Source of the DNA: a virus
Length of the DNA: 36,444 nt
Reading direction: 5' to 3' (one strand)
Virus record (IMG/VR): IMGVR_UViG_3300044641_002664
Coordinates: 1-36,444 of that record
Shown piece after piece: positions 5,948 to 25,211 of the stretch (positions are counted from its first letter, which is position 1; each line of letters starts with the position of its first letter). Under the pieces are notes generated by a model. That model was given only the letters and a program-made list of their open reading frames with translations. It had not been told where the DNA came from and made no database searches. The translations under genes were made by a program, and so were the position numbers.

Positions 5948-6068
5948 CCATCGGGGAAATGGTGGAGTTACTATGTTCCCCGCACCCTCAGCGGGGATAT
6001 GAGAGATACTTTACTTCTCGTGATCTCGGTTTGAGAAGTCAACATTAAGAATCTGTAACGGTTCTTAA
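5948..6068 (-). promoter_or_regulatory. Structured 5' leader of psbA (PhotoRC-like candidate)
   Basis: Between the promoter and the psbA ATG the minus-strand RNA can form four perfect hairpins: arms at 6045-6051/6062-6068 (7 bp), 6013-6019/6033-6039 (7 bp), 5978-5983/5991-5996 (CCCCGC/GCGGGG) and 5948-5952/5960-5964. Conserved RNA motifs named PhotoRC have been described upstream of psbA in marine cyanobacteria and cyanophages; whether this one belongs needs a covariance-model search. It probably affects psbA mRNA stability or translation. Confidence 0.5.
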
Positions 6069-6146: not shown

Positions 6147-6153
6147 CTAAATA
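6147..6153 (+). promoter_or_regulatory. Late-type promoter of the plus-strand cassette
   Basis: CTAAATA on the plus strand 27 bases before the ATG at 6180. Just upstream is a CCCCA/TGGGG mini-hairpin (6127-6139) and a GCCCCAAT direct repeat (6113-6120 and 6125-6132), between the two divergent transcripts. Confidence 0.5.
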
Positions 6154-6179: not shown

Positions 6180-6641
6180 ATGAAAAGACTTCTTTTAGCC
6201 TTTTCGTTATTCTTTATCACTCCTGTAAGTGCTGCTGAAATTACATCAAGAATTACTGATTCTGTTCAATTAGGTGTACAGGGCGCGGCGGTTCAGTCAA
6301 CAAGAATTGGGGCATCATATTCTGCCTCAGGTACAAATATTCAAGCAACTTCATTCGGTGGTGTAAGTGGCGCTGGAACTTACGATATTAATACGGCAGG
6401 TCAAGCATTTACTTTCTCAGAAAGTTTCAATGCTGCTGATTCAATCGTCACCACTCAGTCGGTCTCTGGTGGAGTTATTGCTTCTCCCAACCTTTATGGG
6501 GATAGTGTTACTCAGTTAGCAGGAGACAAAGGTTCTCTCGCTGGTACATTATCACCTACAGGTGTTCCTACTGTTACTGCTGGTGGTCCTGGTACTACAG
6601 CAACAGCACAACGTAGCGTTGAATTGAGCGTATTCAAATGA
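6180..6641 (+). CDS. Exported Ser/Thr/Gly-rich protein, paralogue 1 (153 aa)
   Basis: A clear signal peptide (MKRLLLAFSLFFITPVSAAE, cleavage after the A-x-A at about residue 19) leads to a low-complexity Gly/Ser/Thr/Ala-rich, beta-prone mature protein without cysteines. Its SYSASGTNIQA ... YDINTAGQAFTFSESF region matches the next gene (SYTVTGTNINI ... YTIMNQGAPFQFSETY), so the two are diverged tandem paralogues. First gene of the plus-strand cassette, coupled to the next by ATGA. An exported periplasmic, outer-membrane or virion-surface role is likely; the family is not recognised. Confidence 0.72.
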   Translation: MKRLLLAFSLFFITPVSAAEITSRITDSVQLGVQGAAVQSTRIGASYSASGTNIQATSFGGVSGAGTYDINTAGQAFTFSESFNAADSIVTTQSVSGGVIASPNLYGDSVTQLAGDKGSLAGTLSPTGVPTVTAGGPGTTATAQRSVELSVFK

Positions 6642-6997
6642 AAAGTATCCTAGCAGGGTTGCTCCTGCTAGGGTTTTCTTGTCCTGCCCTAGCTGAACAA
6701 GTTGTTCCTAATTTTACTAGAGGAACAATCACTGCAACCACAGAATCGACTACAAAGATTGTAGAAACAATTCGCCAAGTTGAATATACAACTGGCACAT
6801 CTTACACTGTAACTGGAACAAACATCAATATTCCTGGTAATCCAACACCTGGAGCCAATTATACTATTATGAATCAAGGCGCTCCATTCCAGTTCAGCGA
6901 AACTTATCTCGGCCCAGGAGTGGCTAAGGAAACATGGATAGATCGCAGTACAGAAACAAATTCGGTTACAAACTCGGTATCTGTCTTTACACAGTAA
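6638..6997 (+). CDS. Exported protein, paralogue 2 (119 aa)
   Basis: Starts in an ATGA overlap with the previous gene. Signal peptide MKSILAGLLLLGFSCPALAE, with a Cys in the c-region but no proper lipobox. The mature protein is Thr/Val/Asn-rich with alternating beta strands and shares the GTNI...YxI...GxxFxFSExY pattern with the first gene. It ends in a Thr/Ser-rich TETNSVTNSVSVFTQ. No known family recognised. Co-export with its neighbours suggests one assembly. Confidence 0.7.
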   Translation: MKSILAGLLLLGFSCPALAEQVVPNFTRGTITATTESTTKIVETIRQVEYTTGTSYTVTGTNINIPGNPTPGANYTIMNQGAPFQFSETYLGPGVAKETWIDRSTETNSVTNSVSVFTQ

Positions 6998-7575
6998 CAG
7001 GAATATTATTACTATCTCTTGCAGGTTCGACAAAAAGTAAAGCTCAGCAAGCACCGAGCAATACTAATATTGCAGGACCCTCAGCATCTGCGACTGGTAA
7101 CGTAACTAACCAGGCAGTTCAGGTGCTTCAGGGTCCTTATGCAATGAATACTTATGGTGGTGGGGTTAGTTGCCAAGGTCCAACAATGAGCGTTGCTCCA
7201 TTTGCATTAGGAAATTTTAATGGGAGTCAAGATCCAGAGTCTTATCAATCTTATAATGGGAATTTTGGTGTAAGTCTAGGATTTAATTTCCCCCTCGATG
7301 GTTCATTACAAGAACTTTGTAAAGAAAGAGCAAGAACAGAAATAAAAAGACAAAACGCAGAAGCGGATAAAGCACGTCTCGATTTTGAATTAGTTAGGTT
7401 ATTGAAATGCGGTGAAGCAAAAAAATCAGGTATCGACTTTCATCCAAATAGTCCATATGCAAGTGTTTGTGCTGATGTAATAATACAACCACCAAAAATT
7501 GTTACAATTGACCCTGTTGGATCTCTAAATATAAAGACACCTCCTAAGCAAGTCAATGGGCAAACCCAAAAATAA
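6934..7575 (+). CDS. Exported protein with C-terminal coiled coil (213 aa)
   Basis: ATG 6934 (AAGGA upstream) overlaps the previous gene by 64 bases; no later ATG, GTG or TTG precedes the hydrophobic core LYTVTGILLLSLAG, so this start gives a signal peptide with a long n-region and a likely cut after SKAQQ. The middle is Gly/Asn/Ser-rich (one Cys), a FGVSLGFNFPLDG segment looks like a strand before a ~45-residue charged helix (CKERARTEIKRQNAEADKAR), and two more Cys follow. It could be an outer-membrane or periplasmic scaffold. Function unknown. Confidence 0.68.
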   Translation: MDRSQYRNKFGYKLGICLYTVTGILLLSLAGSTKSKAQQAPSNTNIAGPSASATGNVTNQAVQVLQGPYAMNTYGGGVSCQGPTMSVAPFALGNFNGSQDPESYQSYNGNFGVSLGFNFPLDGSLQELCKERARTEIKRQNAEADKARLDFELVRLLKCGEAKKSGIDFHPNSPYASVCADVIIQPPKIVTIDPVGSLNIKTPPKQVNGQTQK

Positions 7576-7657
7576 AAAAAGTAAGTCTGCTAACGCCAAG
7601 CAGAATTCTGGTAATGCTACAGCGAAAAAAGCAAAGAATGGTGGTAAGAAGAAGTGA
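7556..7657 (+). CDS. Very basic 33-residue protein
   Basis: ATG at 7556 is nested in the 3' end of the preceding gene in another frame. The product starts MGKPKNKKSKSANAKQN and is about 40% Lys with Gly/Asn/Ala filler, resembling nucleic-acid-binding or ribosomal-tail peptides. Its TGA overlaps the ATG of the next ORF (TGATG). The compact coupling supports it, though low complexity keeps confidence moderate. Confidence 0.45.
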   Translation: MGKPKNKKSKSANAKQNSGNATAKKAKNGGKKK

Positions 7658-7833
7658 TGGAGTTCATCGCTTTTATGATAGTTGGTTACATTGAAACAAA
7701 TCCTGGTCAATGCACTTTAGAATATTTTAGATATAACGAAATACACTCACTAGTAGTACCGTGCCAAGAGAATGGAACACTCCAAAGAGGGAGTGTTGGA
7801 ATGCTCCAATCCATCAGATTCTCAAAGCTATAG
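7657..7833 (+). CDS. Hypothetical 58-residue protein
   Basis: ATG at 7657 overlaps the previous stop. The product begins MEFIAFMIVGYIETNPGQCT with a short hydrophobic start and two Cys. Its last 73 bases overlap the next gene in another frame, so one of the two frames may not be used. Function unknown. Confidence 0.42.
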   Translation: MEFIAFMIVGYIETNPGQCTLEYFRYNEIHSLVVPCQENGTLQRGSVGMLQSIRFSKL

Positions 7834-7961
7834 ACAATCACACTCGTCTTTGGATGGAGACGGGTGACTATTGGCATGAAGAACAGGCCCAGATCTTGAG
7901 AAAGTATGTAAAAGATTTGAAAGTCTGGATTCATAAACAAGAAGGATGGTGGGATGAATGA
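7761..7961 (+). CDS. Small Trp-rich soluble protein (66 aa)
   Basis: The frame starts at GTG 7761 (MPREWNTPKRECWN), is Trp/His/Lys-rich (six Trp) and ends in the ATGA that starts the HExxH gene. No ATG is available before residue 32, so the GTG start is inferred from the compact N-terminal pattern. The mostly helical sequence (HQILKAIDNHTRLW, EEQAQILRKYVKDLKVW) looks like a genuine folded protein. No family recognised. Confidence 0.6.
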   Translation: MPREWNTPKRECWNAPIHQILKAIDNHTRLWMETGDYWHEEQAQILRKYVKDLKVWIHKQEGWWDE

Positions 7962-8704
7962 AAAAGATCCTCACAGCAATCGGGTTATCATTAACCTTTT
8001 CATTTCCAGTTAATGCAAATAAATTAGAAAAGACTCAACCAACTGTTCCCGCATATAGCGTAGCAGCGATGGGTTGTATGATACTCAGAGAATGTACAGA
8101 AGGGGTTGAACAACTTACACCAGAGTCTGATATACTTAAAAGCGCATCTTTTGATCCATTCAGAGAAGAAATTAAAAGTATTTTAACTGCTTTGAATAAA
8201 GTTAACGTCCCTGTATATGTTGGGCAGAGTAGATACTTTACTCCAAGAACAGTCGGACTTTACAAACCAAAGTATAATCGTTTCTTTGTTAATGAAAATC
8301 TTTTAAAAGATCCTAGAGAATTTCTGGGAACAATGAGACATGAGGGTTGGCATGTCGTCCAAGACTGTATGGGTGGTGGAATTGAAACATCTTTTATGGC
8401 TCAGGTTCATCAAGATTCTGAGATTCCATCTTGGGTAATGAAGAGCACGAGACTTGCATATGAATCAATGATGCAAAGTCGTGCAGTTCCTTGGGAGGCA
8501 GATGCTAACTGGGCAGAAGAGCAGTCAAATGTAACCGCACAGAAGTTAGAAATGTGTGCGAAAGGTCCATTGTGGGAACAGATTCGTCCAACACCAATGA
8601 CGATGGAATGGTTAATCGGTTGCGGATGGATGAAACCACAAGAAGGTTACAAAGAATATACTCCAAATCAAAAATCAGAGTATTGTGTGGAGGGTAAATA
8701 CTAA
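7958..8704 (+). CDS. Exported putative zinc metallopeptidase (HExxH, DUF4157-like core)
   Basis: 248 residues with a signal peptide (MKKILTAIGLSLTFSFPVNA). Residues 128-132 read HEGWH in the context MRHEGWHVVQDC, the HExxHxxQ arrangement of DUF4157-type gluzincins. A candidate third ligand Glu180 lies in PWEADANWAE. Several Cys (40, 46, 137, 200 and near the C-terminus) could form periplasmic disulfides. Coupled by ATGA to the gene before and by TAATG to the one after. A role in envelope remodelling, lysis or processing of the co-exported proteins is plausible. Peptidase activity is inferred from the motif only. Confidence 0.72.
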   Translation: MKKILTAIGLSLTFSFPVNANKLEKTQPTVPAYSVAAMGCMILRECTEGVEQLTPESDILKSASFDPFREEIKSILTALNKVNVPVYVGQSRYFTPRTVGLYKPKYNRFFVNENLLKDPREFLGTMRHEGWHVVQDCMGGGIETSFMAQVHQDSEIPSWVMKSTRLAYESMMQSRAVPWEADANWAEEQSNVTAQKLEMCAKGPLWEQIRPTPMTMEWLIGCGWMKPQEGYKEYTPNQKSEYCVEGKY

Positions 8705-8811
8705 TGTCTCATGCTGTTGTTTGGATATTAAACAATCCAATAACTTTAGGGATACTTTGTTTTTGTTTAGTAATTTTTCCTATTGTGGGTATTTGGTATG
8801 TCCATAAATGA
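8704..8811 (+). CDS. 35-residue membrane protein
   Basis: ATG overlaps the preceding TAA (TAATG). The product (MSHAVVWILNNPITLGILCF, then a second hydrophobic stretch to WYVHK) is essentially one membrane helix. Overlaps the next ORF by 14 bases. Could be a holin-like or accessory membrane peptide. Function unknown. Confidence 0.5.
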   Translation: MSHAVVWILNNPITLGILCFCLVIFPIVGIWYVHK

Positions 8812-8956
8812 TTTTCCCTGGGGAGTTGTTATAATATTATCTTGCGGACTTGCGTTCACAGGATACATCATTTACTACATATTAAGATTAGCATATATGG
8901 AGATGCAAGATGAAGAACCTAGCACTCATTCTATCAGCAACAAGTCTAGCGATTAG
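8798..8956 (+). CDS. 52-residue membrane protein
   Basis: Begins within the previous ORF (ATG 8798). Residues 8-32 are a membrane helix (WGVVIILSCGLAFTGYIIYY), followed by an acidic/Ser tail that overlaps the next gene by 47 bases. Function unknown; the coding claim rests on coupling and the helix. Confidence 0.48.
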   Translation: MSINDFPWGVVIILSCGLAFTGYIIYYILRLAYMEMQDEEPSTHSISNKSSD

Positions 8957-9119
8957 TGGAGCACTTTGTTATGGTGCTTATGTGACTTATCAAAAGGCAC
9001 AGAATATTCTGAATAATCCAGAAGAGTTTGTTGGTGCTGTTGTTGAAAAACAAGTTAATAAAGCATTTGAAAAACTACCTATTCCTAAACTAAATACTGA
9101 GAAGTTTAAACTATTCTGA
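8910..9119 (+). CDS. Small membrane-anchored protein (69 aa)
   Basis: GGAG eight bases before ATG 8910. The N-terminus MKNLALILSATSLAISGALC is a signal anchor or lipoprotein-like segment ending at a Cys, followed by a helical charged tail (EFVGAVVEKQVNKAFEKLPI). Overlaps the previous ORF in another frame. Precedes the SNase gene by three bases. Unknown role. Confidence 0.6.
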   Translation: MKNLALILSATSLAISGALCYGAYVTYQKAQNILNNPEEFVGAVVEKQVNKAFEKLPIPKLNTEKFKLF

Positions 9120-9122
9120 AGA

Positions 9123-9557
9123 ATGTCAGACAAAGATCCATACATCTATAGAATACGTTCAGTTCATAAGGTAGTAGATGGCGACACTATTGACGCTGAT
9201 ATTGATTTGGGTTTTGATATCTCCCTTACTAAGCGAATTCGTCTTGCTGGTGTCGATACCCCAGAGAGCAGAACAACTAATGCGTATGAAAAGAAACTTG
9301 GTCTTGAAGTTAAAGAGTGGCTTAAAAAGAAATTAGAAGGTCAGACTGATATTATTGTAAAAACAGAACTCCCAGATTCGACCGAAAAATACGGAAGAAT
9401 TCTGGGACATCTTTTTATTGGGGACAAAGAAGTATCAGCAGTGAATAAAAAGAAATCCATCAATCAACAAATGATTGATGAAGGTTATGCTTGGGAATAT
9501 GATGGTGGTACAAAGAAAAAGGACTTTGCTTTATTGGAATCTAGGAGGCAAAAATGA
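9123..9557 (+). CDS. Staphylococcal nuclease-like (SNc) thermonuclease
   Basis: 144 residues spanning the SNase fold. Catalytic/Ca-binding positions are visible: Asp21 (VVDGDTID), Arg40, Asp45, Thr46 and Glu48 (RIRLAGVDTPES), and Arg92 (KYGRILG). There is no signal peptide, so it should act in the cytoplasm unless exported otherwise. SNase homologues are common in cyanophages and may degrade host DNA or RNA. It ends in an ATGA overlap with a small membrane gene. Confidence 0.9.
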   Translation: MSDKDPYIYRIRSVHKVVDGDTIDADIDLGFDISLTKRIRLAGVDTPESRTTNAYEKKLGLEVKEWLKKKLEGQTDIIVKTELPDSTEKYGRILGHLFIGDKEVSAVNKKKSINQQMIDEGYAWEYDGGTKKKDFALLESRRQK

Positions 9558-9691
9558 CTGCTGCACCAGTAAAAGAAAAGCGTAAGGAAGAGAAAGATAA
9601 TATCTTTCTTGAAATTCTTTACAACGTTTCAATTCAATTACCAGTCTTAGTAATTGGGTGGATTATTACACAATTCACATCAGATAGATAA
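9554..9691 (+). CDS. 45-residue membrane protein ending the plus-strand cassette
   Basis: ATG in the ATGA of the SNase gene, preceded by AGGAGG. Charged N-terminus (KEKRKEEKDN), then one helix (VSIQLPVLVIGWIITQF). Its last 12 bases overlap the convergent minus-strand gene. No plus-strand intrinsic terminator is visible between them. Unknown function. Confidence 0.6.
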   Translation: MTAAPVKEKRKEEKDNIFLEILYNVSIQLPVLVIGWIITQFTSDR

Positions 9692-10573
9692 TTTAGCAGA
9701 CAATTTTTTAGCAATTTTTTTAGCGGGGGCAAAGAGAGATTTAAATCTTTCTTTGCCCTCTTTTGTAAACTTATCTTTGATAATATCATCAATAATAATC
9801 TTATTGTCTATTTCGTAAAGAGCATTAATCTCAACTTGATCCCGAATATATTGCTCTACATTAGTAACTTGTTCTACAAGTTTTGTCCCATTTTCAGAAT
9901 ATTCAAAAATATCAACGTGCCCTTCTTCTGCTAAGACATAGTGTAAAACAGGTTTAACTTGTTTGATTTTGATTTTAAATTTATTTTTAGTTGCTTCTTT
10001 AATGATTGGTTCTGCTGCGTTCTTTAATGCATTAAGAACAGTTGTAGACGCTATCGTAGCGGCAGTAGTTACTACTGCGACAGCACCAGCCGTAGCAACA
10101 AGAGAAGGATCAGGTAGATTAATATCTGCACCAAGAACTGTAAAGGTTGGTTGAGGTTTATCTGCTGGTATTTCAGCAATAGGCGCTTGAGTGGGGGGAG
10201 TTTGAAAAACTTGAGGCACTTGAGGTGGGGGAGTACTATTAGGTAAACTCCTGTTCTTATCTGCCTGTTCCTCTTGTTTTTTCTGATCTGCTTTTACAGC
10301 TGCATCAAACTCTTCCTGTGTTGGAACATTGATCACAGGATATTTTATAGAAGGTCTAGGAAAGTCTATAATAGGAAGTCCTAGACCTTGTGTTACTGGA
10401 ACTTCAAGCTTCGGGGCGGGCAGACGCTCTACTGTAGTCTGGGGAATCCCCTGGATCGCAGTTTGGGCAACCTGTGGTTGCTGAAGCATCGGCAACGAGT
10501 TCTGCTGGAGGTTCTGGTTCTGGAGTTGGTTCAACTGAGGTGATCCCAGGTTGTCTATTTGGTTGATCTCCAT
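9680..10573 (-). CDS. Pro/Gln-rich protein with central hydrophobic segment (297 aa)
   Basis: Residues 1-50 are Gln/Asn/Leu-rich, 50-150 Pro-rich (repeated PxP and TPPPQVPQ runs), followed by a hydrophobic Ala/Val/Thr segment around 158-180 (LVATAGAVAVVTTAATIAST) and a charged folded C-terminal domain ending in Lys-rich helices. The long Pro-rich spacer next to a membrane segment is reminiscent of TonB- or spanin-like periplasm-crossing proteins. Its 5' end overlaps the holin-like gene by 170 bases in another frame. It lies at the end of the lysis-type operon. Alternatively it is a virion protein. Confidence 0.65.
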   Translation of the reverse strand: MEINQIDNLGSPQLNQLQNQNLQQNSLPMLQQPQVAQTAIQGIPQTTVERLPAPKLEVPVTQGLGLPIIDFPRPSIKYPVINVPTQEEFDAAVKADQKKQEEQADKNRSLPNSTPPPQVPQVFQTPPTQAPIAEIPADKPQPTFTVLGADINLPDPSLVATAGAVAVVTTAATIASTTVLNALKNAAEPIIKEATKNKFKIKIKQVKPVLHYVLAEEGHVDIFEYSENGTKLVEQVTNVEQYIRDQVEINALYEIDNKIIIDDIIKDKFTKEGKERFKSLFAPAKKIAKKLSAKLSI

Positions 10574-10739
10574 CCTTATCGTCTCCTTTTTTTAGAGTAT
10601 CAACTCCAAAGGTAGCAGCTGCTGCAGTAAACACTGTAGCAATAAAGGTTGGATCCATTTTAGCAAGTAGACCCGCATATGATGCTGTGAGTAGAGCAGC
10701 ACTCCAACTCAAAACAGTAATTCTAACGATAGTGCTCAT
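10404..10739 (-). CDS. Putative holin-like membrane protein (111 aa)
   Basis: The N-terminal ~50 residues contain two hydrophobic stretches (VLSWSAALLTASYAGLLA and TFIATVFTAAAATFG), then a charged and Pro/Glu-rich tail (PEPEPPAELV) with a CPNC motif. Size, topology and location just after a lysozyme gene fit a holin; family not recognised. I prefer ATG 10739 (AGGA seven bases upstream) over ATG 10772, whose AAGGA is too close. The 3' third overlaps the next gene by 170 bases. Confidence 0.6.
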   Translation of the reverse strand: MSTIVRITVLSWSAALLTASYAGLLAKMDPTFIATVFTAAAATFGVDTLKKGDDKDGDQPNRQPGITSVEPTPEPEPPAELVADASATTGCPNCDPGDSPDYSRASARPEA

Positions 10740-10793
10740 ACATCTTTCCTTTTTCTGTTGTGGTTCAGCCATTGTCCTTGATTGAGAGTGAGG

Positions 10794-11465
10794 TTAACCT
10801 TTTTTCCAAGCTTCACCTTCCGCCTTTCTTCTACGTGCTAAACCTGCTTCTACATTTGAACCAGGATTTCTGTAGAGATAGAGCGCATCGGGAACTTTGT
10901 CCCACTCTTTATTCTTCAGTACTCTAGTTATAGTATTAAAATTATCACCACCGTAAAAACCAGCGCCGAGATTATAAGCAAAGCTGAGCAAAGCTCCTCT
11001 TTTACCATCACTCATTTCATTCCAATGTGGAATCTTACGAAGTGCTGGGAGAAAGTGATGCTTCGCTTCTTCAATCAGTAGCTCATCTGCTTCTGCTTGA
11101 GTAATTTTGTCTCCCATCTTGAATGGTTGCCCATTCTTATTTCTAGTAGAACCCCAACCAATAGTGATTGGAAGTCCACCAGAAAGAGGATCTGGATAGG
11201 CATTCAATCTGCATCCTTCAAATTCTTTAACTAATTTGATGCCCATTTGTGGAACATCATCACCACCAACTACAGAAGCAGGAGCTGCAGCAGCAGGGGC
11301 TGGTGCAGCATTACCCTTTTTTCCTCTAAAAATCTCCGCCCAATCTACGTTATCTTCTAGATACTTAACTGGTAAGTTATCTTCTAACCACTGTACGGCT
11401 TTAACGTGATTAGGATTCTTCTCATCATAGAACTTGAAAAAGTTGTGTAGATCAATTCTTGCCAT
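10794..11465 (-). CDS. Endolysin, GH24 T4-type lysozyme with N-terminal module
   Basis: 223 residues. Residues 75-223 form a GH24 lysozyme: catalytic Glu83 (EFEGCRLNAY), Asp92 (YPDPLSGG) and Thr101 (ITIGWGS), and the C-terminal block GLARRRKAE. Residues 1-48 (LHNFFKFYDEKNPNHVKAVQW) are a module shared with the C39-like protein encoded upstream. An Ala/Pro linker (~52-66) joins them. The enzyme hydrolyses the peptidoglycan glycan backbone. No signal peptide, so holin-dependent release is expected. AGGAGG is well placed. Confidence 0.93.
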   Translation of the reverse strand: MARIDLHNFFKFYDEKNPNHVKAVQWLEDNLPVKYLEDNVDWAEIFRGKKGNAAPAPAAAAPASVVGGDDVPQMGIKLVKEFEGCRLNAYPDPLSGGLPITIGWGSTRNKNGQPFKMGDKITQAEADELLIEEAKHHFLPALRKIPHWNEMSDGKRGALLSFAYNLGAGFYGGDNFNTITRVLKNKEWDKVPDALYLYRNPGSNVEAGLARRRKAEGEAWKKG

Positions 11466-11598
11466 TTGTTCCTCCTATATTTGGAAAGTAAATTTCAAAT
11501 AATTCGTTTGCTTCTTTGTGTTTTCCTTGATTTGTGAGTTTCTTCACTTCTTCCAGAATTTTCTTTTTAAACTCAGTCGAAGATCCTTCCCCACCCAT
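11452..11598 (-). CDS. 48-residue charged ORF between the two lysins
   Basis: ATG 11598 has AGGAGG five bases upstream and lies inside the 3' end of the C39-like gene; its TGA lies 14 bases inside the lysozyme gene. The product starts MGGEGSSTEFKKKILEEVKK and is a Lys/Glu-rich helix with a Gly/Asn end. Strong ribosome-binding site and overlap on both sides support coding. Could be a lysis regulator; no family recognised. Confidence 0.55.
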   Translation of the reverse strand: MGGEGSSTEFKKKILEEVKKLTNQGKHKEANELFEIYFPNIGGTNGKN

Positions 11599-12244
11599 CA
11601 TTACCTCCTGGACACCAACGATGCTTCAGGACTGCCTTTGTATAAATGGTCTTCTTACCATTTGTTACGGGACCAGTGTAATTATCATTCAAAGAACCAT
11701 AAGGATCATTAACGAAATATCCCTTTCCATCTGGAGTCTTACCAATCACTACACACATGTGACCACCAGTAGGAGCAGATAAAGAACCGCGATGCAAGAT
11801 ACCAATAACAACAGGTTTCCCAGCATCAAGACTCTTATCAATATCAGCAAAAGAAAGATTATAGCTAAAGTGAGACTTAACTCCATAACCTGCGAGAACT
11901 TTCGTCTGTACCGCATGGTCAGTAGTGTCGCCAATCGCAAATACTTTCTTAACGTATTCATCGTCGCCTTTGATGCTTCCTGGCTTGAGGAAAGCAAGGC
12001 ACATAGCGCACGATGAACTGTTACAAGTTCTATGTGCATCTCGATAGTTATCTACTTGATTGAAGTATGGAACGTTAAGAACTGCTGGAGTTGGAGGTTT
12101 TGTTCTAAAAATACCAATCCACTCGGTTTCTGAATCGTCCATAAACTCAGCAGGAAGGTTATCTTCTAACCATTGAACTGCTGCTACGTGATTCGCGTTA
12201 CCATCATCATAATATTTGAAAAAGTTATGAAGATCTAACGTCAT
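11573..12244 (-). CDS. Putative cysteine peptidase-type endolysin (C39-like) with shared N-terminal module
   Basis: 223 residues. The first ~47 residues (LHNFFKYYDDGNANHVAAVQW) closely match the lysozyme's N-terminus. After a Pro linker, residues 56-200 fit a C39-like papain fold: NVPYFNQVDN, a Cys cluster HRTCNSSSCAMCL with likely nucleophile Cys74, His162 (TGGHMCVVIG) and Asp180 (YFVNDPYG). C39-like domains in phage lysins cut peptide bonds. First gene of the lysis operon, about 25 bases below a perfect TATAAATA promoter. Peptidase activity is inferred. Confidence 0.85.
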   Translation of the reverse strand: MTLDLHNFFKYYDDGNANHVAAVQWLEDNLPAEFMDDSETEWIGIFRTKPPTPAVLNVPYFNQVDNYRDAHRTCNSSSCAMCLAFLKPGSIKGDDEYVKKVFAIGDTTDHAVQTKVLAGYGVKSHFSYNLSFADIDKSLDAGKPVVIGILHRGSLSAPTGGHMCVVIGKTPDGKGYFVNDPYGSLNDNYTGPVTNGKKTIYTKAVLKHRWCPGGNDGWGRIFD

Positions 12245-13597: not shown

Positions 13598-15046
13598 TCA
13601 GAAGGTGAACTTAGTCTGAACGACGCCGCCCCACTTGGAGGAGTCATCGAACCTTTGATTGTTCGTCACATAGAAGAGAGCAGGAGTGATGCTGATGTTA
13701 TCAGACACTTGGAACTTGTAGAAGATTTCCAGAAGTTGAGCGTCTTCTACGTCAGTGGTAGGTGCTGCACCATAAGCAACTCCAGCAGAGTTGCCCTTGG
13801 CGAACACATCGCTCCACTGAAGACCGACGAACCAAGAATCGGTGTTGTAATCATCACCGCCACTTACGGCATTGTAACCGTAACCAGCACTGATTGAAGG
13901 AACAAAACCAGACTCAGTAGGTTGCCAGTAACCATTTACAGCAACGCTATTTGATTCTTGACCAGTAGCAAGAGTTCCATTGAACCCAAGAGGACCGTTG
14001 AAGGAACGAGGACGGGTGCCCTCAGTACCATAACGATAACCAACACCAACACCCCAGTTAGATGCCTTGTAACCAACTTGAGCAAGCAGGTTTAGAGCAC
14101 CATCGGCATTGAATACACCAGTCTCACTATCGCTACCGTTTTGAGCAACGTAGTTCAGACCAGCAACGAATCCAGTTTTACCAACATACTGAGCACCGAA
14201 ACCAGCACCAGTTGCCTTGTTATAGACACCAGGAGCACCAGCAGTGGTGAAGAAGTCAAGAATTTCCGAACGATAAGCGGTAGGAACCCAAGACATCTCA
14301 GTGTTACGAACCAGAGGTCCAGCAGTCAGAGTTACATTCTGAGCAACAGGGAACTGATAATACAGGCGATCAATCTCTACACTATTAGCAGTGGTTTCTG
14401 CCTTATCAAGTTTGAAGAGTGATGAAGAAGAACCGAAAGGATTATCATTGAAGTTACCAGCACGAAGACGAGTGCGGAGCAGATCCTTACCAGTGAATGA
14501 AGTATCAAAGTTCAGACGGAGATCATAGTTGAATGCGGTGTTTCCAACGTTTCCACCATCATTCGTTTCAAGACCAGGAACTCCACCCAAAGCAAAGATT
14601 GCTTCACCCTTGAGTTTGGTAGTAGTGGAGAATTGAGTTGCCTCAAGTTCACCAACTTTTGCTTCAAGGCCATTTACACGACCCTTAAGAACACCAAGTT
14701 CAGTTTTGAATTCAGCAATAAGACGCTGAAGTTCATCGGTAACTTCCGTTACACGATCCAGACAAGCGTTCAGAAGAGCAGCGGCTTCGTAACGACTCAT
14801 CGAACGACCACCACCATAGGTCCCGTTAGGATAACCAGCAACGCAACCATAACGCTCAACGAGGTTGCTGAGTGCCTGATATGCCCAATCGGTAGGTTGA
14901 ACATCAGACAGTTGATTGATACTTGAGACTTGTTCTGCTGTAGCATATTGATTGACTGCCGCCATATTAAGGTCTGCGGCATTCGCAGCAACAGGAGCAA
15001 CCATTCCCAGAGCAACAGGTGCAAGCATCAGTTGTTTGAGTTTCAT
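13598..15046 (-). CDS. Outer-membrane porin, cyanobacterial SLH-OprB (iron-uptake porin) type
   Basis: 482 residues from ATG 15046, giving a signal peptide (MKLKQLMLAPVALGMVAPVA, cleaved after ANA); longer upstream starts only add a non-signal leader. Then an SLH-type domain (DVQPTDWAYQALSNLVERYG, YEAAALLNACLDRVTEVTDE), a coiled coil around 100-140 (LKGRVNGLEAKVGELEATQF), and a beta-barrel to a terminal Phe (GGVVQTKFTF), the usual outer-membrane end. This is the layout of marine Synechococcus SomA/SomB porins. Full length with an intact signal, so probably functional: nutrient or ion passage, or changing phage-receptor display. Own promoter and terminator. Likely acquired from a host. Confidence 0.93.
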   Translation of the reverse strand: MKLKQLMLAPVALGMVAPVAANAADLNMAAVNQYATAEQVSSINQLSDVQPTDWAYQALSNLVERYGCVAGYPNGTYGGGRSMSRYEAAALLNACLDRVTEVTDELQRLIAEFKTELGVLKGRVNGLEAKVGELEATQFSTTTKLKGEAIFALGGVPGLETNDGGNVGNTAFNYDLRLNFDTSFTGKDLLRTRLRAGNFNDNPFGSSSSLFKLDKAETTANSVEIDRLYYQFPVAQNVTLTAGPLVRNTEMSWVPTAYRSEILDFFTTAGAPGVYNKATGAGFGAQYVGKTGFVAGLNYVAQNGSDSETGVFNADGALNLLAQVGYKASNWGVGVGYRYGTEGTRPRSFNGPLGFNGTLATGQESNSVAVNGYWQPTESGFVPSISAGYGYNAVSGGDDYNTDSWFVGLQWSDVFAKGNSAGVAYGAAPTTDVEDAQLLEIFYKFQVSDNISITPALFYVTNNQRFDDSSKWGGVVQTKFTF

Positions 15047-15076
15047 AAAGTTGTTTTTAGTACTAAACGACATATC

Positions 15077-15111
15077 GAATAACCATGCAAATAGTTGCGG
15101 CATGGTTATTC
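15077..15111 (-). repeat. 12-bp perfect inverted repeat in the porin leader
   Basis: Arms GAATAACCATGC (15077-15088) and its complement (15100-15111), 11-base loop. No T-run, so not a standard terminator. It lies right after the apparent transcription start of the porin and could stabilise its mRNA. Confidence 0.7.
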
Positions 15112-15120
15112 AATGAATTT

Positions 15121-15149
15121 ACTTTAACATTTTTTTTACAATTCGTCAA
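15121..15149 (-). promoter_or_regulatory. Candidate early promoter of the porin gene
   Basis: Minus strand TTGACG (15149-15144), 17-base spacer, TAAAGT (15126-15121). The -35 overlaps the stop codon of the GT25 gene. The -10 is a weak match, so support is moderate. Confidence 0.45.
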
Positions 15150-15952
15150 GCTTTTGGTTGAGATGGTTCTGTGATTCTCCCTAGATACGGATCATATTCC
15201 ATTAAGTCCGCAATGGTTAACTGAGCCCCAGTCTGTTCCCAAAAGTTTTTAAGTCCATCATGACTTTGACGATGAAAAATATCAACGTGTTCTGGATGAA
15301 TAGATGATCCCAATTGAATCTTGTATAAGAAGAGTGGAATGGAGTAAGTATTTCCCGAATTATAAATTAAGTCATCAGCAACAGGACGTGGTTTAACACC
15401 ATTATCCAATCGATATTTGTCTTCTCCCTTCACATGAAATTTAAGAAGCTTTTCTGCATGATGCCTGTTGATAATATAACAAGCTGTAGAAAAATCATTT
15501 ACAAATCTTTTATGAAGTTTCACATGCAAATCACCAGTACAAATAATAGCAGTTTGAACTACATCCCAATCATATGGAATTCTAGAATAAAAATCTAACC
15601 AAGTAAAATTCCAAAATCTAACCAAATCCAAATTACAATCATCTTCCATAATAACTGCATATGGACTATCAGATGTTTCCATCCAATGTTTGATTGCTTT
15701 AAGATGTGATGTCGTGCAACCAATTTCCCCAGAGGTCATCATTTCTGGATATCTACCAGTAAGAATATCACTAAGGTCATCTTGTCTACCATCATACGCA
15801 GAGATACGAGTATAGTTTTCAATTTCCCAATATTTAAATTGGTCTTCCATATATTGAGCTCTCTCTGGTTGACCATCCAGATTAAGATAATAAATTGGAC
15901 CAATTCCCCTCAGCTTATATGCTGATTTATTTTTATCTAATAATTCATTCAT
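15146..15952 (-). CDS. Glycosyltransferase, GT25/LPS-LgtB type
   Basis: 268 residues with family-25 hallmarks: IGPIYYLNLDGQPERAQYM at the N-terminus, GEIGCTTSHLKAIKHW, an acidic VIMEDDCNLD (likely DxD-like metal site) and YIINRHHAEKLL. GT25 enzymes add galactose to lipooligosaccharide. Last gene of the glycan operon, ATGA-coupled to the UDP-glucose dehydrogenase gene. Donor and acceptor not predictable from sequence. Confidence 0.9.
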   Translation of the reverse strand: MNELLDKNKSAYKLRGIGPIYYLNLDGQPERAQYMEDQFKYWEIENYTRISAYDGRQDDLSDILTGRYPEMMTSGEIGCTTSHLKAIKHWMETSDSPYAVIMEDDCNLDLVRFWNFTWLDFYSRIPYDWDVVQTAIICTGDLHVKLHKRFVNDFSTACYIINRHHAEKLLKFHVKGEDKYRLDNGVKPRPVADDLIYNSGNTYSIPLFLYKIQLGSSIHPEHVDIFHRQSHDGLKNFWEQTGAQLTIADLMEYDPYLGRITEPSQPKA

Positions 15953-17112
15953 AACCCAACCAGAATAAAATCTTCTTTAATTTCAGATTGCTCAGAGACA
16001 AAAACAACTCTATCACCATAGTATTCTAGCATTGGTTGCTGAATTTGATCAAGGATTGTTTGGTTATCACCAATATAAACTTTATATCCAGCATCTAAAA
16101 GATCGATACAAAGTTTATATTGGCGACTTTCAGTTAAGATGTCCGTTCCTTTCTTATAAGAAACATGTGGGAAGTAATAAGGAAGACCTTCATTATTAAT
16201 TGAAGCAAAATATTCAAATAAGAATTTTGAATGTTGCTCATTAAAAGCATCAGTAACCGATCCAAGATTATACTTCAATCCAACCTTTTGAGCATATGCA
16301 GCAAAAGAACGATTGTCTCTAGGTAGACATGGACCACCATATCCAAATCCATATCTCATATATTTTTTACCAACTCTACTATCAGATCCGATAGCATCTA
16401 AAACCTGTTCGATTTCGTTTTCTAGACCAGATAAAGTTAAAACTTCACCGACCATATTTGCGTAACTGATTTTAGTTGTAAGGTAACAATTAAGTGCTAG
16501 TTTTACAATCTCTGCTGCAGTAGTAGACATAAAACAAGGATTTGCTTCAATCCATTGAATTCTGCTATAAATCGTAGCAATCTTAGATCTTACATTAGGA
16601 TCTTCCCCTCCAATAAGAACCATATCAGCATATCTCAGATCATGAATAATAGATCCCTGAGCAATAAATTCTGGGTTATAAAAAACGTCTACTCCATATG
16701 GAGAAAGTTTTTCTTTAAACTTTTCACAATCTCCAGGATTTGTAGTGCATCCAACTACAAAAACTTTTCCATTTAAATCAATACCATACTCAGATGCTTT
16801 TTGAATATCTTCAACTACTTTCCAAACAGCAGTTACATCGTAAGATCCATCTGCAGCAGAAGGAGTTGCTACCAAAGTGTAGATGATATCGGATTGCTTT
16901 ACAACCTCAATATTATCAATAGTCGCTACGAAGTTTTTAGCATCATCTAAAAGATCCGCTACTTCTGGTTCGTTGGTATTGATGATTCGATTGTTTAGGG
17001 AAATAACATAATCCTCACGACAATCAGATACGATAACATCATATCCAGATTTTTCTGCAAGAAGAGCAAAGCAAATACCAAGTCTTCCTGCTCCGATAAC
17101 TCCAATCTTCAT
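15949..17112 (-). CDS. UDP-glucose/GDP-mannose dehydrogenase family
   Basis: 387 residues. Rossmann GAGRLG near residue 7 and the catalytic thiol in GYGGPCLPRDNRSF (Cys262), preceded by the central NPEFIAQGS block. Oxidises a nucleotide sugar to a uronic acid, using two NAD. Shorter than UDP-glucose dehydrogenase norms (~440) at the C-terminal domain. ATGA-coupled on both sides. The NAD synthetase encoded just upstream could support it. Substrate unknown. Confidence 0.9.
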   Translation of the reverse strand: MKIGVIGAGRLGICFALLAEKSGYDVIVSDCREDYVISLNNRIINTNEPEVADLLDDAKNFVATIDNIEVVKQSDIIYTLVATPSAADGSYDVTAVWKVVEDIQKASEYGIDLNGKVFVVGCTTNPGDCEKFKEKLSPYGVDVFYNPEFIAQGSIIHDLRYADMVLIGGEDPNVRSKIATIYSRIQWIEANPCFMSTTAAEIVKLALNCYLTTKISYANMVGEVLTLSGLENEIEQVLDAIGSDSRVGKKYMRYGFGYGGPCLPRDNRSFAAYAQKVGLKYNLGSVTDAFNEQHSKFLFEYFASINNEGLPYYFPHVSYKKGTDILTESRQYKLCIDLLDAGYKVYIGDNQTILDQIQQPMLEYYGDRVVFVSEQSEIKEDFILVGL

Positions 17113-17903
17113 AGTTTAAATGTAGGAATAGACAACATTTTATGTTTATTTTGGGTGTTAAATTTTTTATAGACTTCGATTGCTTTTAGTTGATTTTCGT
17201 TAAGAAACATTGGATCTTCACTCAATCCAGTTTCCATAACCCACTCAAGCATTTCATAAGATGTTCCAATCTGATCCTCATCAGATCTACCATCTTCCCA
17301 AAGTCCATCTGTGGGAGGAGCATCAACAATACGTTGATCTACTCCAAGATATTTTCCAAGTTCCCATACCTCAGTTTTATAAAGGTCTGCGATAGGAGCA
17401 ATATCAACTCCACCATCACCATATTTAGTATAAAATCCCACACCGTAATCTTCAACTTTATTTCCAGTACCGACAACAATACCACCAACAGATCCAGCAA
17501 TTTGATACAAAGTAACCATGCGAATGCGTGATTTTGTATTTGCATTTGCAAGTTGATTGCTTGTGTACTGAGAACTGTTAGTCCACCAATTCAAACTATG
17601 AACGAATTTATCATACACACTAGAAAGTTCTACACGAATTCTAGTAACATTAGGATATTTTGCTTCCAATGCTTTTGTATGATCATCTGAAAGTCTATCA
17701 TTATCTACATTTGAAAGTAGAGGCATAGACAAGACATATGTTGGTAGTCCAGTTTCTGCACAAAGAGTTGAGACTACAGCAGAGTCAATTCCTCCAGAAA
17801 CTCCTACAACAAGAGATTTGATGCTAGGGTTTTCTAGTACATAGTCACCCAACCATTTAACAATTCTATTTTTTAATTGTTCGTAATCTGAAATTCGATT
17901 CAT
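17109..17903 (-). CDS. nadE: NAD+ synthetase, ammonia-dependent (NadE)
   Basis: 264 residues. P-loop SGGIDSA at 36-42, then NTKSRIRM, GTGNKVEDYGVGFYTKYGDG (deamido-NAD/ATP site), PIADLYKTEVWELGKYLG and GLWEDGRSDEDQIG, all diagnostic for NadE. No glutaminase domain, so ammonia-dependent. It makes NAD from NaAD. Unusual inside a glycan operon. It may supply NAD to the four nucleotide-sugar oxidoreductases/epimerases around it or replenish host NAD during infection. Both ends ATGA-coupled. Confidence 0.9.
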   Translation of the reverse strand: MNRISDYEQLKNRIVKWLGDYVLENPSIKSLVVGVSGGIDSAVVSTLCAETGLPTYVLSMPLLSNVDNDRLSDDHTKALEAKYPNVTRIRVELSSVYDKFVHSLNWWTNSSQYTSNQLANANTKSRIRMVTLYQIAGSVGGIVVGTGNKVEDYGVGFYTKYGDGGVDIAPIADLYKTEVWELGKYLGVDQRIVDAPPTDGLWEDGRSDEDQIGTSYEMLEWVMETGLSEDPMFLNENQLKAIEVYKKFNTQNKHKMLSIPTFKL

Positions 17904-18712
17904 TGGTATTTTTTAAGATACGACTGTTGTAAATAATAATTTTTTAATTCTTCCACACTCATTGATTGGACCTTTTCCCATTCATCATTATTCTGATTCA
18001 TATGGGGATTACTGAACCATGAATTAGGACCTCTTTTATGTTCTAGATGATAGACATAATCATTAATACGTCCTACATTATACCCCAATGTAGTAAATCT
18101 GTAAAATCTTTCTTTATCTTCTGGTGCATATGCTACAAAGTTTTCATTTTCCATTCCACCTTCAATATAAACTTTACGGTTAAAGAACTGAGCCCACCCA
18201 AAATCGGAGGTGTGAGTATTTGAATTTTTATCTAAAACTGAAAAATCAAAATCGTTAGATAGAAAATCAGAGACTAGTTCATCAGTAGCAGCAACTTGCT
18301 TCTGATACATCCCTTGACCGTATGGATATACAATATCATAAGTATGATCAATAATAGAATTATATGCCTCTAGATAAGAATTGAATGGGAGAATAACATC
18401 ACAATCATAATTTACAACAACCTCAGTATTGGAAACCCATAGCATTTCATTCAGAATTCTTTGCCTATGAAAAGTTCCACCATCACTTTCTTCAAAGATA
18501 TGATCAATATCTGGAACATTTCCCAGAAATTCTGAAATCTGAGGAAGTGCTTGATTACGAAATACTGAAGTAGAATCAACCTCCTTTAAGATTATATTTG
18601 TTTCAAAATTTTCCAATAAAAAGCATAGAGATGTAATAACATTCCTAAGTCTATCATCAGATTCTATTCTGACTGGAATGATAAAAGTCGCTTTTGATAA
18701 ATCAGTTTTCAT
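17900..18712 (-). CDS. Glycosyltransferase, GT2/GT7 galactosyltransferase-like
   Basis: 270 residues. An N-terminal FIIPVRIESDDRLRNVITSL region, a YDCDVILPF metal-binding-like motif, and a C-terminal GGMENENFVAYAPEDKERFYR block like the galactosyltransferase (Glyco_transf_7C) acceptor-side motif. Probably a beta-galactosyl- or GalNAc-transferase fold. Overlaps the GT2 gene by 11 bases. Confidence 0.82.
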   Translation of the reverse strand: MKTDLSKATFIIPVRIESDDRLRNVITSLCFLLENFETNIILKEVDSTSVFRNQALPQISEFLGNVPDIDHIFEESDGGTFHRQRILNEMLWVSNTEVVVNYDCDVILPFNSYLEAYNSIIDHTYDIVYPYGQGMYQKQVAATDELVSDFLSNDFDFSVLDKNSNTHTSDFGWAQFFNRKVYIEGGMENENFVAYAPEDKERFYRFTTLGYNVGRINDYVYHLEHKRGPNSWFSNPHMNQNNDEWEKVQSMSVEELKNYYLQQSYLKKYQ

Positions 18713-19460
18713 CTGGATACTTTCTAGTTTGTATAAATTCTGAATATTTTTCTTGAATATATTTTAATTCTTTACTATTCATCATCCATCCACCTTCTGG
18801 ATGCTCTACAACACAATCATATTGAGAAGTTGCTTGACTGCTTATTCGATTATCATGATCTCTATTTGCAACTAGAATATCAGGAATAATATTTGGAAGT
18901 CCATTATTCCACCTCATTCTATGATAAAAATCGGTGTCGAGTAATAGTTTTAGATTTAAATCAAAGTTAACTTTGCAATCATTTAAAAATGAAACTACGG
19001 ATGGACTGCTCAGAAGATTTCTTCCCTCAAGAGTGTAGTCAACCCATTTTGGAACTTTTTGATCATAGAAAGAAACTCCGTCTTTAGTTCCGCAAAATCC
19101 ACTAAATGCCCATTTACAATTAGATGTTTTGTATTCCTCGGAAATAATTTCTAATGCTTTCGGTGAAACAAAAACATCATCGGAGAACATGATTTTAATT
19201 ATTTTACCAGCACAATTATCTAAAGCAACATTAATATTTTCACATGCATTAGTACCAGAATATCTAACAAAAGTAAATTCAAAATCATCAGAATATTCTT
19301 TACAAACATCCAAGATTAAATCATTTTTACTTTGATCAGAAACAACAATATCAAAATCTTGAAACGTTTGAACCTTAAGAGAATCGAGCAATTGTCTCAT
19401 CCAAATTGGTCCATTCTCTCCCCTATCATGAGATGGAATTGCAATAGAAAATTCAGTCAT
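18702..19460 (-). CDS. Glycosyltransferase family 2
   Basis: 252 residues from ATG 19460 (TAATG overlap with the upstream gene; an in-frame start at 19475 would overlap it further). GT-A features: FSIAIPSHDRG, QTFQDFDIVVSDQSKND, IIKIMFSDDVFVS (DxD-like SDDVF). Adds a sugar from a nucleotide donor with inversion. Sits mid-operon. Confidence 0.86.
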   Translation of the reverse strand: MTEFSIAIPSHDRGENGPIWMRQLLDSLKVQTFQDFDIVVSDQSKNDLILDVCKEYSDDFEFTFVRYSGTNACENINVALDNCAGKIIKIMFSDDVFVSPKALEIISEEYKTSNCKWAFSGFCGTKDGVSFYDQKVPKWVDYTLEGRNLLSSPSVVSFLNDCKVNFDLNLKLLLDTDFYHRMRWNNGLPNIIPDILVANRDHDNRISSQATSQYDCVVEHPEGGWMMNSKELKYIQEKYSEFIQTRKYPDEN

Positions 19461-20251
19461 TAAATTCTTTCCCAATCCTCAGGTACTAAATCAACTTCAT
19501 CAATTGTAGCAGCAGGTCCAAACCAAACTTTGGGTGCAATAATTTTTTTAGAATTAGCCAACCATGCTCCCCACCAACTATAAGTACTATTAGCAATGAT
19601 ATGATATGAGCAAAGAGTCATAAGGCACATATCAATTATATTATCATCAGATTCCGAGATCAAAAATCTATCACTCTCAAATAAAGATTGAGTCTTACAC
19701 CACTTTGGATCATCAGAAAAAATCATAACTGGAAGATTTTCTGGTAGTTTTTCCAGTGCTGCTTCGTAGTATTCAAGAGGGAGAACTGGATGATATTGTG
19801 GTTTAATTAGATGATCTGTTCTACGAATATGAAGAGAAATTGCATCAACTCCAAATGAGAACATCTCTTTACATGGTTTGAGAATATCATCTACGAAAGT
19901 AAAGTCTTCACGAATTTCATCAGCAATATGATTAAAGTATTTTGGTGATTGAAAATACCCATAAAGATTTACGTTATCTTCGCAGTTATTAAAAAGATTT
20001 TCATTAAATCTAAATGTTTCCTCTTCCACATAAGGTGCTGGAAAAAGATTAACCTCCTTTACATGAGGAAGATTAAAAGCCATGAATAACTTATGCTGAT
20101 TTTCTTCATCGTTGAATTCATCATAAGTTTTAGGACCAGGGGGAATACACCAATCAAATCCTCGATTAGCAGCAATTCCTCTAGTAGCAGCGTATTGGAA
20201 CATTTGATTTCCAAAACGACCATTCTTTCCTAAGTGATTATGTCCGATCAT
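19460..20251 (-). CDS. GT11-type alpha-1,2-fucosyltransferase-like (copy 1)
   Basis: 263 residues with GT11 motifs: GRFGNQMFQYAATRGIAA, ISLHIRRTDH (HxRR donor motif), MIFSDDPKWCK and IIANSTYSWWGAWLANS. Closely resembles the GT11 gene at 27621, so paralogous. GT11 enzymes use GDP-L-fucose or a sugar of like stereochemistry. ATGA-coupled to the previous gene. Confidence 0.9.
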   Translation of the reverse strand: MIGHNHLGKNGRFGNQMFQYAATRGIAANRGFDWCIPPGPKTYDEFNDEENQHKLFMAFNLPHVKEVNLFPAPYVEEETFRFNENLFNNCEDNVNLYGYFQSPKYFNHIADEIREDFTFVDDILKPCKEMFSFGVDAISLHIRRTDHLIKPQYHPVLPLEYYEAALEKLPENLPVMIFSDDPKWCKTQSLFESDRFLISESDDNIIDMCLMTLCSYHIIANSTYSWWGAWLANSKKIIAPKVWFGPAATIDEVDLVPEDWERI

Positions 20252-20922
20252 AGTACAGTTCCTGGTGGTAAATGATAATGGAATCCAAAGGGAACAATTC
20301 CCTGAGTTTCTGGAAGTGGTTTTTCGTGAGAAAATTTAGCGGCAACTTCCACTGGGGCAAACTTACACCCCAATGCTTCGTAGATATGGCGATTGTGAAC
20401 GCAGATATTTCCATCCTCTCCAGTATTACCATATCCAAAATGCTTATAAAAGTCTCCCCAATTTACATCAAAGTGAATATAAGCTCTCTTGGGTACATCT
20501 AAAAGTTTTTTACTTCTAAAAGAGAATCCCCCATTTCCAACTCTATGAGGTTTTCCCCAAGGATCCAGATAAGAATGAGGAACTTGCTCCCAAGGAGCAC
20601 CAATATAATCATAATTAAAGAACTCATTATCCCATTTATCTGGATTAATTACAAACCCATCTGGTTGAACAAGAAGACAATAATCAGTATCAATATGTTT
20701 GCTCAGGTTGTAAATGCAATAATAATTGTAATCATGAATTGACTTAATCTCATAGCATTTAGAAAACTCAATTCCCTCGGGAAGATTACCTGGATCTTCG
20801 TGAGTAATCAACTTTACTGCACCAAAATTAATTCCCTTCATACTATGCTGTAGAGCAAAGAGTGCTCCAGGAATATTATTTGAAGATATGCAGAATAAAG
20901 TTACATTAGGTAGATTGATCAT
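20248..20922 (-). CDS. DUF5672-like glycosyltransferase
   Basis: 224 residues from ATG 20922 (GAGG 11 bases upstream; longer starts are possible). Shows TDYCLLVQPDGFVINP, YDYIGAPWEQVP and RVGNGGFSFRSKKLL, the pattern of DUF5672 proteins common in glycan clusters. Acts on an unknown acceptor. Soluble. Coupled at both ends. Confidence 0.84.
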   Translation of the reverse strand: MINLPNVTLFCISSNNIPGALFALQHSMKGINFGAVKLITHEDPGNLPEGIEFSKCYEIKSIHDYNYYCIYNLSKHIDTDYCLLVQPDGFVINPDKWDNEFFNYDYIGAPWEQVPHSYLDPWGKPHRVGNGGFSFRSKKLLDVPKRAYIHFDVNWGDFYKHFGYGNTGEDGNICVHNRHIYEALGCKFAPVEVAAKFSHEKPLPETQGIVPFGFHYHLPPGTVL

Positions 20923-24525: not shown

Positions 24526-24526
24526 A

Positions 24527-25198
24527 TCAGTTCTTAGTAATAATGATTAGTCCGTTATTTTCTTCAGTCTCATATTCAATTTCCCATTCGGGATTTTCTT
24601 CCAAGAATTCATCAATTGCTAGTCTAATTCCACCTGATCCATCAAGAGTATCTCTTTGTGGATGGTTTGGATCCATGGATGGATAACCTTCACCACGCTC
24701 ACCAAATGTATAGGTATCGTGAAAAGCAATATACTTTCTAACTTTACCAGCATGAAGTTCTAGTTCTTTTTTAAGTTGATCGTAGCAGTGCCACGTATCA
24801 ATGAAAAGCATATCAGTTTCTTCAATTTCTACTGTAAGAACATCGGCACCAATATATTCACAATTCACACCCAATTCTTGTGCTTGATGAAAGACTTTAA
24901 TTAGAGCGTTAACTTCTCTAGCGAGGTGTGGTTCTGGATTTTCATATTGATAATCATAAGAGACAAATTTTTTAGGATTAGCATATAAAAATGCAGATGT
25001 ACTATTTCCAGATCTTGCCCCCATTTCGGTTACATGATCACACTTCTTAGCGTATTCATACAAAACAGGAAGATGCATGTAAATATCAGATACTTCACAT
25101 GCACATGCATCTTCATAGATGTCTTGAATACTAAATGGTTTAGCGACTTTAGCAGGTCTATTCTTTGGTTGATAGACAAGAACTTTTGAATTTCTCAT
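24527..25198 (-). CDS. Class I SAM methyltransferase-like protein A
   Basis: 223 residues. VTEMGARSGNSTSAFLYANP is a SAM motif, with CEYIGADVLTVEIEETDMLF and FHDTYTFGERGEG (CmcI/Methyltransf_24-like). N-terminus has a basic leader. Glycan O-methylation is inferred from context. Sits 13 bases after its neighbour, with a weak ribosome-binding site. Confidence 0.78.
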   Translation of the reverse strand: MRNSKVLVYQPKNRPAKVAKPFSIQDIYEDACACEVSDIYMHLPVLYEYAKKCDHVTEMGARSGNSTSAFLYANPKKFVSYDYQYENPEPHLAREVNALIKVFHQAQELGVNCEYIGADVLTVEIEETDMLFIDTWHCYDQLKKELELHAGKVRKYIAFHDTYTFGERGEGYPSMDPNHPQRDTLDGSGGIRLAIDEFLEENPEWEIEYETEENNGLIIITKN

Positions 25199-25211
25199 AA
25201 TTTTAATTAAT

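Follow-up and report, generated by a model that had tools for sequence, protein, structure and literature searches.

Conserved module of exported and membrane proteins in T4-like and T7-like cyanophages: a candidate for opening the host outer membrane

Introduction

What does a dense run of small exported and membrane proteins, encoded opposite psbA, do for a cyanophage? The question is raised by a 36.4-kb virus record from IMG/VR (IMGVR_UViG_3300044641_002664, positions 1 to 36,444; hereafter the window, meaning the whole stretch of DNA analysed), which represents a freshwater-type T4-like cyanophage whose closest isolate is DSL-LC03 from Dishui Lake. At positions 6180–9691, about 12 plus-strand open reading frames (ORFs) overlap or are separated by tiny gaps, in the order P1, P2, P3, small ORFs, P7, small membrane ORFs and an SNase-family nuclease with an ORF of 45 amino acids (aa). 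A sequence-only reading had taken this block for a single dedicated late envelope or lysis module. These genes do not make up one functional unit. At the core of the block is the exported trio P1, P2 and P3, and, judged by gene families and gene order, the module is wider than the plus-strand block and comprises five genes, namely the trio and the minus-strand genes ProTM and TM2. Tentatively, we propose that these five proteins act late in infection to breach the outer membrane. No description of how T4-like or T7-like cyanophages open the outer membrane of Synechococcus or Prochlorococcus was found in the searchable literature.

Components of the module

The features that define the module are as follows.

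6147 to 6153, plus strand: T4-type late promoter element CTAAATA, upstream of P1
6180 to 6641, plus strand: P1, exported, Ser/Thr/Gly-rich, phrog_564
6638 to 6997, plus strand: P2, exported, DUF6322 / phrog_650
6934 to 7575, plus strand: P3, exported, phrog_848/1755, four invariant cysteines
6934 to 6997, plus strand: overlap of the P2 and P3 reading frames, 64 nucleotides (nt)
9680 to 10573, minus strand: ProTM, with a proline-rich N-terminal half, one transmembrane (TM) segment and a basic C-terminal part; the first ATG may lie upstream of the real start
10404 to 10772, minus strand: TM2, DUF6450 / phrog_21865/721/2714, with two TM segments and holin-like topology

All five components are thus present and adjacent in the window, with the P2/P3 overlap and a late promoter before P1. 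The signal peptides of P1–P3 are of the Sec type, and the four invariant cysteines of P3 are as expected of a periplasmic protein with disulfides. Profile comparison identifies P1 and P2 as paralogues (E 5.4e-11, probability 97%). The overlap between P2 and P3 is 64 nt in all window-like and most podovirus loci and 52 nt in most marine myovirus loci, with identical phase, and is thus kept across phage families. Comparison of P1 with the host 'LSAF' family was not significant, while P2 matched a host family at E 1e-4, yet with a probability of 57%.

The 3' part of TM2 and the ProTM ORF share up to 170 nt (10404–10573, minus strand), read on the same strand in different frames; overlapping TM2/ProTM open frames also occur in convergent-type relatives (L008, L014 and L009). 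ProTM is the counterpart of gp42 of the T7-like phage P-SSP7, to which it is linked by iterated search (phrog_9426 is a weak match for the window protein, E 0.033, and a strong one for gp42), and it regularly adjoins P3 or TM2. Both TM2 and P-SSP7 gp43 have the topology of class II holins, being small, with two TM segments and charged termini, though family searches with TM2 matched only DUF6450 and phrogs of unknown function. DUF6450 and P3 occurred jointly in seven of seven phage records, and neither had a family-level match in S-CREM2 or S-SZBM1. In host-family genomes DUF6450 was found in 2 of 300, both times on podovirus contigs. The gene families are known but unnamed. NCBIfam holds no names for the module proteins, and searches for papers on DUF6322 and on cyanophage holins and spanins returned no description of the module as a unit.

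Late promoters

Counted across the whole window, CTAAATA occurs at chance level (9 seen versus 8.9 expected); the element ahead of P1 is conserved in position. Of 142 relatives, 123 have TAAATA ahead of P1, almost always 26–37 nt before the start, against a background of 3.7% of random 100-nt stretches, and the element agrees with the late motif of S-PM2, NATAAATA (PMC2984593). The late-type promoter claimed by the sequence-only reading is thereby upheld, and on this sequence evidence the trio is under late control. TM2 likewise has the element upstream of it, in 58 of the 62 marine loci and in 36 of the 61 from fresh water.

Distribution and gene order

P3 relatives were found in 462 phage records, all of them cyanophages or marine phages by name, including the T7-like P-SSP7, P-RSP2 and NATL1A-7. 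Gene order was surveyed in 240 IMG/VR loci. Where contigs reach far enough, the order is P1-P2-P3 in T4-like and P2-P3 in T7-like phages, with rare exceptions. In the T7-like cyanophages, ProTM-TM2-P2-P3 form one operon in at least 60 of 80 loci, and most of the others end at a contig edge. The trio P1-P2-P3 of marine myoviruses is followed by ProTM and TM2, both encoded on the opposite strand. In the window clade, the gene immediately downstream of P3 is ProTM, which shares the strand of P3 in 61 loci and is convergent with it in 18. As far as gene order can tell, the module partners remain together despite repeated rearrangement.

The T7-like arrangement offers a positional clue to function. 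In P-SSP7, gp44 is a P2 homologue (E 1e-30), the stretch at gp45 is a P3 homologue, and gp42–gp45 sit between the tail fibre gene and gp19; in T7, this is the location of the holin and spanins. Two reference annotations differ from the gene models found here: gp45 of P-SSP7 is annotated about 100 nt too short, with its start too far downstream (L087:7935-8555), and P3 is unannotated in S-SCSM1 (L086:6995-7792). Both errors probably arose because of the overlap with P2.

Neighbouring endolysins

Two endolysin genes stand beside TM2 in the window.

10794 to 11465, minus strand: lysozyme-type endolysin (PF00959), on the same strand as TM2 and 21 nt before it
11573 to 12244, minus strand: C39-type peptidase endolysin

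Endolysin genes adjoin the module in three different arrangements. In the window clade the order is C39-LYS-TM2-ProTM; in three further loci (L095, L097 and L098) the C39 gene adjoins TM2-P1-P2-P3; and in three podoviruses (L116, L120 and L138) a lysozyme gene lies downstream of ProTM-TM2-P2-P3. The lysozyme and the C39 peptidase of the window (10794–12244, minus strand) share an N-terminal domain of about 50 aa (DLHNFFK.YD...HV.AVQWLEDNLP), and phrog_3617 covers the two as one protein in other phages. In DSL-LC03, a 550-aa gene annotated as an autotransporter beta-barrel (L001:9056-10705, minus strand) lies between the endolysin and TM2, unlike in the window, where the lysozyme is followed directly by TM2.

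Structure models

The AlphaFold2 model of P2 (predicted local distance difference test, pLDDT, 86; predicted template modelling score, pTM, 0.41) is a long hairpin with two strands of 24–25 residues. Its weak matches in the PDB are mostly pore-former stems and ring collars such as FliF, with nothing above Z 4.0 or better than a Foldseek E of 0.003. The weak Foldseek matches of the hairpin also include phage collar proteins, and in a viral structure library the named best matches are phage proteins of marine or cyanophage origin. The P3 model (pLDDT 70) consists of short beta strands followed by a 42-residue helix, for which structure comparisons stayed at Z 3.6 or below and at E 0.4 or worse. 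Together, the P2 and P3 models suggest an oligomeric ring that might bridge or open the outer membrane.

Profile searches of P3 against solved structures returned mainly antibody-type chains (E 0.7 or worse). P3 was also considered as an OEP/TolC channel and rejected, the window protein scoring E 0.12 and 0.088, both failing the family cut-off; among P3 members the resemblance appears in 8 of 78 and stays below threshold (best E 0.031).

Copies in host genomes

Three metagenome-assembled genomes (MAGs) of freshwater Synechococcus type (L099, L100 and L101; 55–57% GC) carry P1-P2-P3, with ProTM as well in L099 and L100, where the contig is long enough; none has a TM2 match. The genes next to the trio are ndhE/NAD-kinase and CYTH-type genes, and all three contigs end soon after the module. 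A tree of 46 proteins places the MAG copies within the freshwater phage clade (98/95) and apart from the distant host family, although its long branches are a reason for caution. In these copies P2 and P3 no longer overlap, and P3 seems to have a new signal peptide. The ratios of non-synonymous to synonymous substitution rates (dN/dS) are about 0.07 for both P2 and P3, compared with about 0.35 for P1. These sequences indicate that the MAG trio is probably phage-derived and kept under purifying selection. Host gene context was seen only for these three contigs, and most other matches on genome contigs look, by title and module content, like phage contigs binned with unrelated hosts. For example, a candidate host P3 group (G072/G284) proved to consist of podovirus contigs with phage genes around.

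More distant relatives of P3 occur in cyanobacterial chromosomes (L291–L294), amid numerous small exported proteins rich in Ser/Thr/Asn, together with a repeat-like protein rich in Cys. The distant relative in such exported-protein clusters, the 'GPGINCPTPT' family, resembles P3 in its signal peptide, conserved cysteines and similar helix (phrog_1755, E 8.5e-9), but is very distant and has different partners.

The remainder of the block and other envelope genes

Downstream of the trio, the plus-strand block contains the following.

7556 to 7961, plus strand: three small ORFs (33, 59 and 66 aa), which close relatives share and which are inverted in DSL-LC02; outside the module core
7958 to 8704, plus strand: P7, exported HEGWH (zincin-like) protein, phrog_591
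8704 to 9119, plus strand: three small ORFs with one TM segment each (8704–8811, about 8798–8956 and 8910–9119)
9090 to 9096, plus strand: separate late promoter element of the SNase gene
9123 to 9557, plus strand: SNase-family nuclease, phrog_452/PF00565, no signal peptide, separate unit
9554 to 9691, plus strand: 45-aa ORF with one TM segment

Most individual elements described by the sequence-only reading were recovered here. About 11 genes are densely packed, the plus-strand ORFs overlapping or nearly abutting throughout 6180–9691, and this is the sole plus-strand gene block in the window, the remaining plus-strand ORFs of at least 100 aa facing longer minus-strand ORFs. Four signal peptides had been predicted and correspond to signal-peptide-like N-termini on P1, P2, P3 and P7; the four further membrane proteins have one hydrophobic segment each (S8, S8b, S9 and S11). 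The exported metallopeptidase-like protein is P7, whose HExxH motif (HEGWH) is kept in 66 of 68 relatives and which matches Pfam DUF6782 at no better than E 0.056, and the nuclease matches PF00565 at E 4.7e-16.

In contrast, the claim that all of these genes, P7 and SNase included, constitute one unit was not confirmed. The SNase gene is a promoter unit of its own, because it has its own late element in 50 of 53 relatives (freshwater loci), mostly at −31. The P7 family is found in 366 phage records and adjoins the module in only part of the loci. Most window-like loci encode SNase and P7 on the minus strand and the trio on the plus strand, and in DSL-LC02 the strand is reversed for SNase and the small genes. 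Scattering or absence in relatives, which the same reading had named as evidence against a module, is therefore seen for P7, SNase and the small genes (inverted, elsewhere or missing), whereas the trio keeps its order in nearly all complete loci. The idea of a dedicated late envelope or lysis module survives for P1-P2-P3 alone, with lysis itself conjectural, and is lost for the rest of the block.

A PhotoRC-II RNA (5963–6052, minus strand) precedes the plus-strand block. Elsewhere the window encodes a full-length cyanobacterial-type outer-membrane porin with SLH and OprB domains (13598–15103, minus strand; PF00395/PF04966); the freshwater cyanophage S-SRM01 has a 70% identical 'porin', while S-PM2 and S-CREM1 match only the SLH-like part. 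A long run of glycan genes follows (15146–30404, minus strand), with glycosyltransferase families 2, 11 and 25, GDP-mannose dehydratase/epimerases and a methyltransferase, and within it a phage NAD synthase (17109–17903). A wcaG RNA lies at 30469–30569.

Discussion

Our preferred reading, held tentatively and with slightly less than even confidence, is that the five proteins are a late lysis or outer-membrane-breaching module in which TM2 is holin-like and P1–P3 with ProTM do the work of spanins. Membership, gene order, late promoters, export signals, membrane segments and endolysin adjacency are read directly from the sequences; from these we infer lysis, the membrane orientation of the proteins, their complex and their order of action. 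TM2, with two TM segments, small residues and charged ends, would be the inner-membrane part, and ProTM would be anchored in the same membrane with its proline-rich arm reaching into the periplasm. P1 and P2 may be exported long beta-hairpin proteins of a ring- or tube-assembling kind, and P3 an exported protein whose beta part is joined to the 42-residue helix and held by the conserved cysteines. P1–P3 and ProTM would then span the periplasm and break up or pierce the outer membrane after the nearby endolysins cut the peptidoglycan. This reading rests on the constant association of the five genes, their late promoters, the three forms of endolysin adjacency, the T7-like gene position, the topology of TM2 and ProTM, the P2/P3 overlap kept across phage families, the P2 model with its matches and the P3 helix. 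T4 r genes are reported to be missing in cyanophages in a 2010 review (PMC2984593).

Several findings weigh against a lytic role. Two phages that lack the module, S-SZBM1 and S-CREM2, still lyse their hosts, and the 6-kb flanks of marine T4-like loci contain no endolysin of these families. Unlike two-component spanins, the module consists largely of beta-rich exported proteins and has five components rather than two; inspection of P1–P3 revealed no clear lipobox, and with AxA-type cleavage sites their signals look cleaved. The structure matches are weak overall (Z 4 or less; PDB Foldseek E 0.003 or worse). Finally, since the trio and ProTM are kept in a host, they cannot be lethal alone and may serve a role other than lysis. 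Host retention would fit envelope proteins that are harmful only together with TM2 and an endolysin, and would equally fit a function unrelated to lysis.

It is quite possible that the module remodels the envelope without lysing the cell, P1–P3 and ProTM forming a conduit, surface structure or superinfection-exclusion layer late in infection, with TM2 as an assembly or anchoring factor, and that freshwater Synechococcus captured the genes for its surface or for phage resistance. The chromosomal copies, with their host neighbours, placement in the freshwater phage clade (98/95) and purifying selection, are consistent with such a role, as are the distant P3 relatives in exported-protein clusters of cyanobacterial chromosomes, the further envelope genes of the window (OprB/SLH porin, glycosyltransferases) and the weak OEP/TolC-like resemblance of some P3 members. 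Pure remodelling sits less easily with the three endolysin arrangements, with a holin-like TM2 sharing the operon and with DUF6450, which matches podovirus contigs only and no host chromosome.

That the proteins are minor virion or virion-assembly components, exported or membrane-associated during assembly, is improbable: the late promoter and the weak collar-protein matches of the P2 hairpin would suit such a role, but P1, P2 and P3 carry Sec-type signal peptides and their genes are distant from the structural clusters of T4-like phages. The virion protein tables compared were those of S-CREM2 and S-SZBM1, both phages without the genes, and S-SZBM1 was for that reason discarded as a virion-proteome test. 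In S-CREM2, gp174 and gp176 (near lysozymes and in the virion proteome) were considered as P1 and P3 by size and place and rejected, their sequences being unrelated and S-CREM2 having no P3. A single-purpose operon spanning all of 6180–9691, metallopeptidase and SNase included, is very improbable and mostly refuted by synteny, since, for all the tight packing of the block on one strand in this contig, the SNase gene has its own late promoter and most relatives encode SNase, P7 and the small genes on the opposite strand or at another location.

A bolder version of the breaching hypothesis, which we consider rather unlikely, is a spanin-independent machine made of ring-forming P1/P2, a beta–helix P3, a proline-rich arm and a holin-like protein, common to two unrelated phage lineages on the same picocyanobacteria, its non-holin part domesticated by freshwater Synechococcus. 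Five widespread gene families can now be put forward as candidates for the outer-membrane opening step and can be tested in phages amenable to genetics; the analysis also accounts for several genes of reference genomes that lack an annotation or carry a wrong one. If true, host capture of the exported part and its maintenance by selection would stand out as an unusual instance of phage envelope genes being taken over by a cell.

Comparison with known systems

The module resembles two-component spanins (lambda Rz/Rz1, T7 gp18.5/18.7) in being late and exported, with overlapping frames, a comparable position in T7-like genomes and endolysin neighbours. Set against the spanin inner-membrane protein with its periplasmic coiled coil, ProTM has one TM segment but a proline-rich arm, and P3 has a helix but an apparently cleavable signal. 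TM2 is similar to class II holins such as phage 21 S in its two TM segments, charged ends, helices rich in small residues and, in the window clade, endolysin neighbour; it differs in its family matches, which were to DUF6450, without assigned function, and to phrogs of unknown function.

Among cyanophages, the closest T4-like parallels are S-SCSM1 (gp205–gp206 plus the unannotated P3) and ACG-2014e ('OMP1 protein' and neighbours), which have the order P1-P2-P3 and a convergent ProTM, the S-SCSM1 trio also lying opposite psbA; they differ from the window in a P3 of 39% identity and in having no window-type endolysin within 6 kb. In P-SSP7, the uncharacterised gp42–gp45 (ProTM, TM2, P2 and P3) are without P1 and form one co-directional operon between the tail fibre and terminase genes, unlike in the window, yet they comprise the same four families in the same order, with the same P2/P3 overlap.

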